Part shown: piece after piece, positions 2,389-4,510 of the stretch
Layout: each line of letters starts with the position of its first letter
Numbering within the stretch: the first letter of the stretch is position 1
Assembly: GCA_001464865.1 (NCBI GenBank)
Contig: LNEG01000115.1
Span: 40,351-104,350 of the forward strand
Direction: 5' to 3'
DNA: 64,000 nucleotides
Source: Burkholderiales bacterium Ga0074133
GTDB lineage: Bacteria; Pseudomonadota; Gammaproteobacteria; Burkholderiales; Burkholderiaceae_C
Made by a program: the position numbers and the translations under genes
Notes under the pieces: generated by a model
Seen by the model: the letters and a program-made list of their open reading frames with translations, nothing else
Database searches by the model: none
What the model was told of the DNA's origin: nothing

Positions 2389-2409
2389 GTGTTGTTGCAA
2401 GGCCCCGCC

Positions 2410-3045
2410 ATGATCACTTTGTACGACTGCGCCACCGCGCCCAGCCCGCGCCGCGCGCGCATCCTGCTGGCTGAAAAGGGCATTGCCCACCACACCGTGC
2501 AGGTGGATCTGCGCAGTGGTGAACAGCTGGGCGATGCCTACCGGCAGATCAACCCGCAGTGCACGGTGCCCGCACTGCGCGCGCAGGACGATGGTGCGCT
2601 GATGACCGACAACGCCGCCATCACTGCCTACGTGGAGGCGCGCTGGCCGCAGCCGCCGCTGCTGGGCGAGACACCTGCCGAAAAGGCCGAGATCGCCAGC
2701 TGGAACTGGCGCATGGAGTTCGAGGGGCTGCAGGCCATTGCCGAGGCGCTGCGCAACAGCGCGCCCGCCATGGCCAACCGGGCGCTGCCGGGCGCGGTGG
2801 ACTACCCGCAGATCCCGGCCCTGGCCGAGCGTGGGCTGGTGCGCGTGGGGCAGTTCTTTCAGCTGCTCAACGAGCGCCTGGCGGACCGCGACTTCATTGC
2901 TGCCAACCGGTTCAGCGTAGCCGACATCACGGCGGTGGTGGCGGTGGACTTTGCCCGCGTGGTCAAGCACAAGCCGGGCGAGCAGCACCCGCACCTGCTG
3001 CGCTGGCGCGCGGCGATGGCACAGCGGCCGTCGATGGCGTTGTAG
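2410..3045 (+). CDS. glutathione S-transferase family protein
   Basis: 'MITLYDCATAPSPRRARILLAEKGIAHHTVQVDL...INPQCTVPAL' GST N-domain. Confidence 0.85.
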   Translation: MITLYDCATAPSPRRARILLAEKGIAHHTVQVDLRSGEQLGDAYRQINPQCTVPALRAQDDGALMTDNAAITAYVEARWPQPPLLGETPAEKAEIASWNWRMEFEGLQAIAEALRNSAPAMANRALPGAVDYPQIPALAERGLVRVGQFFQLLNERLADRDFIAANRFSVADITAVVAVDFARVVKHKPGEQHPHLLRWRAAMAQRPSMAL

Positions 3046-3142: not shown

Positions 3143-3305
3143 GTGCATTTCGGGGCAGTTTGGGCTGCCTGCCGTGTTCCAGCGGCCCGGTGCACTGCTG
3201 TGCGCGTCAAAGACTTGTCCGGCCTGAGCCTGCGCAGGGCCGACACGGCCCGGCGATGCAATGGGCAGATTCAGCAATTGCGCCGTCGGCCCATTCCTTG
3301 CATCT

Positions 3306-3579
3306 TTAGAACCTGTTCAATGTCTTTTTGGGGATCGCATTGGAGTGCAATCGGGAGGAGTGGATGCTTCGGATGCGCTGCATGGGCTCGTGCCCATGCA
3401 AGCAGCCGGGGCGTTCAATCACCCGATTTCACTCCAACCCTTCGGGCAAGTGCCTTGTCGGGCGGTCTGCGGCGTTGCGGCGCTTGCCAATAGCCGAGCT
3501 ATTGGCCGCGCGCCGCGCCTAGCATCCCATCCCGGCAAGGCACTTGAGCGACCCAAAAAAGACATTGAACAGGTTCTTA
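3306..3579. mobile_element. MITE-like non-autonomous element with terminal inverted repeats and TTA flanks
   Basis: AGAACCTGTTCAATGTCTTTTT (from 3308) is inverted at the right end (AAAAAGACATTGAACAGGTTCT); TTA at 3306-3308 and 3577-3579; nested internal inverted repeats. Confidence 0.75.
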
Positions 3580-3583
3580 GCCC

Positions 3584-4510
3584 ATGCGTCTTCGCCACAT
3601 AGAAGTTTTCAACGCCGTCATGCTTACCGGCAGCGTGAGCGCGGCGGCCCGCCTCATCAACGTCACGCAGCCAGCGGTCAGCCGCATCCTGGCGCATGCC
3701 GAGCTGCAGCTGGGGTTCCCGCTGTTCCATCGGCTCAAAGGCAAGCTGGTGCCCACCACCGAGGCGCAAACCCTGTACCCGCACATCGAGCGCCTGTTCA
3801 CCCAGCTTGACGATGTGCAGCGCCTGGCCAAAAGCCTCAAGGGCGACCAGCGCGAGGGCGAGCTGCACATCCTGAGCGTGCTGGCACTCAGCTACGAGGT
3901 ACTGCCGCGTGCGCTGCGGTTTTTCCGCCAGAAGCATCCCGATGTGAAGATCACCATCGACGCACTGCATTCGCCGCAGATCGTGTCGGCCCTGGTGCTG
4001 CAGGAGGCCGACGTAGGCTTTGTGTTCAGCGCCATCGCGCACCCCGCGCTCACGCAGGAGCACCTGGCCGATGGCCGCATGGTGTGCGTGGCGCCCAAGG
4101 GCATGCTGGCTGCGGCGCTGGTGGATGCGGGCGTGCTGCACCTGGCGGACCTGGGCGACACGCCGGTGGTGCATCTGGATGTACGCGACCCCATCGGCAC
4201 GGTGGTCAGCCACGCCTGCCGCGAGGCCGGGGTGGGCCTGCAGACCGCCATCACCGTGCAGACCTACCACGCCGCGCTGGCGCTGGCGCACCACGGCCAT
4301 GCGGTGGCCGTGATCGATACCTGCACCGCGGCGTCTGCCGATCGCAGCAAGGTCGATGTGCTGGCGCTCGCGCCGCACATTGCGGTGCCCATCAAGTCCT
4401 TGCGCACCGTCAACCGCCCCAGCTCGCTGCTGGCCAGCGCCATGACGCAGTGCATGCGCCGCGCAGTGGTGGAGACGATGGAATCGGTAGGCCTGCGCGA
4501 CGCCGAGTAG
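3584..4510 (+). CDS. LysR-family transcriptional regulator
   Basis: 'MRLRHIEVFNAVMLTGSVSAAARLINVTQPAVSRILAHAELQLGFPLFHR' HTH. Confidence 0.92.
   Translation: MRLRHIEVFNAVMLTGSVSAAARLINVTQPAVSRILAHAELQLGFPLFHRLKGKLVPTTEAQTLYPHIERLFTQLDDVQRLAKSLKGDQREGELHILSVLALSYEVLPRALRFFRQKHPDVKITIDALHSPQIVSALVLQEADVGFVFSAIAHPALTQEHLADGRMVCVAPKGMLAAALVDAGVLHLADLGDTPVVHLDVRDPIGTVVSHACREAGVGLQTAITVQTYHAALALAHHGHAVAVIDTCTAASADRSKVDVLALAPHIAVPIKSLRTVNRPSSLLASAMTQCMRRAVVETMESVGLRDAE

Follow-up and report, generated by a model that had tools for sequence, protein, structure and literature searches.

MITEs are usually viewed as leftovers of a single IS, with ends that carry meaning and an interior that is arbitrary. 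Bacterial MITEs that are moved in trans by IS (PMC10969869; R0 and R2 of Pseudomonas fluorescens SBW25, PMC2718517) resemble the element described here in that they are shorter than 500 bp, have no transposase of their own, and carry the same inverted ends as an IS; they are also alike in target duplication, in intergenic position, and in having a strong hairpin. Mattes et al. (2008), as cited in PMC10969869, reported a MITE from Polaromonas sp. JS666; it comes from the same bacterial group and may be a relative of the present family. Among the papers searched, no description of this MITE family was found.

The element lies between a glutathione S-transferase-like (GST) gene and a LysR-type regulator gene in the window, the 64,000-nucleotide stretch of DNA that was analyzed. 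It is short (268 bp), non-coding, and bounded by terminal inverted repeats whose outer 22 bp are perfect; the inverted ends as a whole (3308-3333 and 3552-3577 in the repeat search) extend over 26 nt and are 96% complementary. In both arms the stem pairs at 15 of 16 positions (3340-3355 with 3422-3437 in arm 1; 3447-3462 with 3531-3546 in arm 2), the odd pair in arm 2 being G-U, and four bases separate the right TTA from the ATG of the LysR gene. The exact 22 bp inverted ends, the TTA flanks, and both arms had been described in the first-pass annotation, and all of these coordinates agree with our direct reading.

Table 1. Features of the element and its neighborhood at the GST-LysR locus (positions in the window).
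Feature	Position	Strand	Basis
268-bp element, flanked by direct repeats TTA	3309..3576		direct reading; bounds set by the target rule
Left TTA, copy of the target-site duplication	3306..3308	.	sequence; same TNA rule across 122 sites
Left terminal inverted repeat, GAACCTGTTCAATGTCTTTTTGGGG	3309..3333	+	repeat search; IS5-family IS of a relative has the same ends
Arm 1, stem and inner perfect hairpin (3379-3400)	3340..3437	+	direct reading; consensus helices 2-4
Small central hairpin CCC-TTC-GGG, between the arms	3438..3446	+	consensus helix 5, 99.5% of cells paired
Arm 2, the widespread core module	3447..3546	+	match to model R1 at 3447-3547, 100.2 bits; copies order-wide
Arm 2 parts: GGGCGGTCTGCGGCGTTGC; inner hairpin; GCGCCTAGCATCCCATCCC	3460-3478; 3486-3506; 3515-3533	+	
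Right terminal inverted repeat	3552..3576	+	repeat search
Right TTA, copy of the target-site duplication	3577..3579	.	direct reading
LysR-type regulator gene, downstream; host gene, outside the element	3584..4510	+	ORF; orthologues in the genus
Glutathione S-transferase-like gene, upstream; host gene	2389..3045	+	ORF; orthologues in the genus

The source genome (G000) holds about 10 full-length or near-full-length copies as well as fragments, with identities of 79-93% for the longer copies. Elsewhere in the genus, 35 of 36 genomes gave matches (G031 is the sole exception, and G008 and G025 have one weak match each), so that the multiple copies for which the first-pass annotation had proposed to look are present in related genomes as well as at home. 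Seven complete or near-complete genomes of the genus contain 14-42 matches each, fragments counted. Copies at different sites are 97-98% alike in G007, G022, G023, G032, and G036, while the most alike pair in G000 is only 93% identical and no intact IS5-family transposase was found in its draft genome (255 contigs); the family thus looks recently active in the relatives and less so in its own genome, and present mobility in the source strain appears doubtful. Orthologous insertions at other loci are common to 11 genome pairs. A search of phages returned zero matches to the element, and a search of plasmids returned a match on one Comamonas plasmid only.

Junctions taken from 129 loci with a full-length copy gave 122 distinct sites. 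TNA was present on both sides at 85 of them, and the two copies were identical in 62 of these 85, whereas the base frequencies at N predict 29; across the 122 sites, C before and G after the TNA were enriched. This pattern points to C-TNA-G as the target, with duplication of TNA. Since the end of the element starts with G and finishes with C, insertion would restore CTNAG at both junctions. At the other 37 sites, the lack of a two-sided TNA is probably due to decay.

The GST and LysR genes are adjacent in many genomes of the genus, and the gap between them is free of the element in most. The empty gaps nearest in sequence read CATTGTTAGTTGATG or CATTGTTATTTGATG and contain a single TTA; orthologous empty sites of this kind, another proposal of the first-pass annotation, thus exist in the nearest relatives, alongside three deleted remnants (L139 in G020, L142 in G034, and L154 in G021) in which both ends are kept and most of the hairpin interior is deleted. 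Insertion followed by decay would predict such remnants, although separate insertions at one point would be an alternative account of them. The GST-LysR gap of G018 (L150) contains a different element upstream of the LysR start, with ends GTGTGCTGTCCCGCAAATAACTGCAC and the same kind of core.

Folded as a single strand, the element reaches -183.6 kcal/mol, compared with -106.6 +/- 5.2 kcal/mol in dinucleotide shuffles (z -14.8; 0 of 200), and its predicted fold strength is far outside chance. It is barely conceivable that we are dealing with a chance GC-rich inverted repeat or a local terminator with no tie to transposition: the position between two genes would suit such a feature, and nothing more does, while the fold and the many copies with target duplications speak against it. 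The copies and the empty orthologous sites had already refuted this candidate.

Partner transposases were sought in the genus by a PF13340 search and later with PF05598 and PF01609. In G022, an IS with ends GAACCTGTTCAAAATCTTTTC (L172:1396-2271) directly follows a MITE, with one TTA in common. Further copies put the length of the IS at 878 bp; it has AGAACCTGTTCA ends and is flanked by TTA repeats. Its transposase lies in two overlapping frames (L172:1471-2263), which are recognized by the IS5-family model NF033580 and also by PF13340 and PF01609 (DUF4096 plus DDE). An autonomous partner with the same ends, the full-length IS that the first-pass annotation had hoped to see, is therefore present in relatives (G022; L172/L431/L436); the draft of G000 gave zero PF13340 matches, and its PF05598 and PF01609 matches were partial or weak only. 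Because the 878-bp IS in a relative combines the same ends with TTA repeats, mobilization in trans by an IS5-family transposase appears to be the best explanation. The arrangement at L172:1124-2271 places a MITE and an IS with the same ends side by side, one TTA being common to both.

Taken together, these results indicate that the feature is very probably a MITE that belongs to Acidovorax and related bacteria and is moved in trans by IS5-family transposases and inserted at C-TNA-G. On the sequence evidence, a MITE of the IS5 family is strongly supported, and the MITE reading of the first-pass annotation is favored alike by the copies, the TNA duplication, the empty sites, and the IS with the same ends. 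We propose that the 22-25 bp ends would be the recognition sites of IS5-family (IS427/IS402-like, DUF4096 plus DDE) transposases, which would act in trans to cut out or copy the MITE; it would then be inserted at C-TNA-G with duplication of TNA, the transposition event itself being deduced from these traces. Entry into the GST-LysR gap would have occurred in an ancestor of this strain, and partial deletion would have followed in the three relatives unless they represent separate insertions at the same point. The element now lies between the LysR upstream region and the start codon, probably as a structured leader if transcription starts upstream, and its interior carries a core hairpin module also found in MITEs with other IS5-family ends.

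The consequences for the neighboring genes were examined with home-made gene calls, from a codon-usage caller trained on the window. No copy at the 122 sites lies wholly within a called gene. Where both flanks were called, the neighbors were tandem at 34 and 38 sites, divergent at 28, and convergent at 22, so that there is no orientation bias to the neighboring genes (34:38). The junction falls on a stop codon at 35 of the 122 sites; since a stop is formed by the second repeat copy as well at 27 of these 35 (identical TNA copies at 18), the stop predates the insertion in most of them. Insertions in stop codons would follow from the fact that TNA includes TAA and TGA, together with selection against gene disruption, and the target rule would thereby allow copies to sit harmlessly in stop codons. 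Copies located exactly in the stop codon of a neighboring gene, about one quarter, include L004, L024, L026, L049, L063, and L068, and in these the insertion keeps the stop.

Just upstream of the insertion, a palindromic stretch (3240-3305) ends in TTCCTTGCAT, and relatives keep part of it as TGCAAGGATTGC..TTCCTTGCA. This stretch may be an operator or promoter of LysR, and the element puts about 270 bp between it and the LysR ATG. If the palindromic stretch holds the promoter, the folded element would form the beginning of the LysR transcript; a search of the element itself revealed no promoter-like site. The earlier statement that the element must form the leader of LysR is too strong in its "must," since it depends on a transcription start that lies upstream of the insertion. 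The element also offers a presence/absence marker immediately in front of a LysR gene.

Part of the interior reaches far beyond this family. Matches limited to query positions 159-235 turned up in many genera, with a common core string consisting of GGGCGGTCTGCNNCGTTGC, a variable hairpin, and GCGCCTNGCANCCCATCCC. When one genome from each species was scanned for the exact pattern, at least 120 stretches with the core were recovered; the letters fixed by the search pattern are no evidence of conservation among these matches, while the hairpin between them was left free. Among the matches listed, the core is carried by Acidovorax, Comamonas, Polaromonas, Simplicispira, Diaphorobacter, and Curvibacter, which suggests that the genus studied here is Acidovorax or a close neighbor of it. 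A covariance model of the core (R1, with rough E-values) detected 50 copies in G000 and 35-44 in three relatives. Within the order it matched 45 of 115 good genomes, with weaker matches in 29 of 123 good genomes of a further class-wide sample. In the window, R1 did not detect arm 1 as an inverted copy of the core (best overlap 3.5 bits), although arm 1 looks like a putative one by eye. Outside the MITE family, several elements consist of a pair of cores in inverted orientation on either side of a CCCTTCGGG-like hairpin. Such paired inverted cores are found at L378, L379, L383, L384, L391, and L392, often with many per genome.

To address how the stems are kept, a consensus fold was built from 70 copies less than 95% alike. 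It contains 102 pairs, with 97.8% of cells paired, and changes on both sides were observed at 35 of the 102 predicted pairs; 325 cells were changed on both sides, whereas shuffles gave 89 and slid controls 13-36. The strongest two-sided changes fall in the ends (columns 14/268, 15/267, 22/259, and 26/255) and at the foot of the arm-2 hairpin (columns 186-188/203-205). In the core, the halves of the variable hairpin pair at -18.0 kcal/mol in their native combination versus -11.7 kcal/mol when swapped. The excess of paired changes over shuffles, the better pairing of native halves, and the conserved core strings that flank a covarying hairpin across genera would all suit a structured RNA or regulatory leader under RNA-level selection, with mobility secondary. 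We nevertheless regard this account as very unlikely. With the forward-strand structure, single-sided changes in the arms favor G-U over A-C by 70:29, but the reverse-strand structure turns this bias round, and pairs predicted on both strands give 19:21. RNA-strand-specific selection was dropped on these grounds, the G-U excess being an artefact of choosing the structure of one strand. Further points against an RNA are the unbiased orientation of the neighboring genes, the absence of the element from the GST-LysR locus in most genomes of the genus, and a search of Rfam 15 with the element that found no family (best score 16.2 bits against a gathering cut-off of 90.5).

The balance of 19:21 suggests that stem pairing is maintained in a strand-neutral way, by selection on a DNA hairpin, by template-switch correction, or by both. 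Template-switch repair in the palindrome (quasi-palindrome correction) would produce covariation without functional meaning; it leaves the MITE reading intact and is a rival only on the question of what maintains the stems. We consider it a real possibility, though not the probable one: the ends also show many two-sided changes (58 events, inferred on one tree), these changes come as blocks such as CCA/TGG, TTG/CAA, and TGG/CCA, and the pairing is strand-neutral, but the cross-genus likeness of the unpaired core strings is left unexplained, even though the search pattern fixed part of it.

Returning to the MITE, the arm-2 core recurs across Burkholderiales in MITEs whose IS5-family ends are of three or more kinds, on elements of about 160-170 bp and about 270 bp. 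The first kind of end, AGAACCTGTTCA with TNA repeats, is matched in the genus by the 878-bp DUF4096 IS. The second, GGGATCCTCTGCACGAATC or GGCAACGCTGAACAAGTC with CTAG/CTAA-type repeats, is matched by a DUF772 IS of about 1190 bp (CTAGGGATTCTCTGCACGAATC; L411, L445, and L449), and the third, GAGCGTGTTATG (L203), by an IS of 880 bp in the genus (GAGCGTGTTATGAACTT; L432 and others). More than one end type is seen on both short and long bodies, which suggests that ends may have been exchanged between elements; gradual divergence from one ancestor would be the alternative. The element is most likely of an ordinary kind, with an unusual and widely shared core whose function is putative. A bolder and rather unlikely hypothesis is that the core is a long-lived parasitic module, selected for its own activity (perhaps the binding of a factor from the host or of one used in transposition), repeatedly re-capped with the ends of at least three groups of IS5-family IS, and spreading over Burkholderiales, and perhaps beyond, by switching transposases.

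Compared with the REP/BIME of the RAYT (TnpA-REP) system, the element is alike as a repeated intergenic palindrome, and its core sometimes occurs in inverted pairs; unlike them, it has terminal inverted repeats and a TNA target duplication, and the GTAG/GGAG foot of REP/BIME was not seen in the core on reading. With the IS427/IS402-like IS (IS5 family, DUF4096 plus DDE in two overlapping frames, 878 bp), it has in common the ends GAACCTGTTCAA..TCTTTT and the TNA duplication, whereas the IS carries a transposase and, as far as compared, only the ends are common to both. Its interior matches the cores of other MITEs, and we noticed no sign of a deleted transposase gene, a comparison made without direct alignment. 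The interior is here the common part, the same structured core occurring with IS5-family ends of different target rules (TNA and CTAG-type). A core with varied ends allows one to test if the core of a MITE is functional, and if switching to another transposase is a way for non-autonomous elements to persist. What sets the element apart from bacterial MITEs such as R0 and R2 is one core hairpin common to MITEs with the ends of different IS5-family groups.
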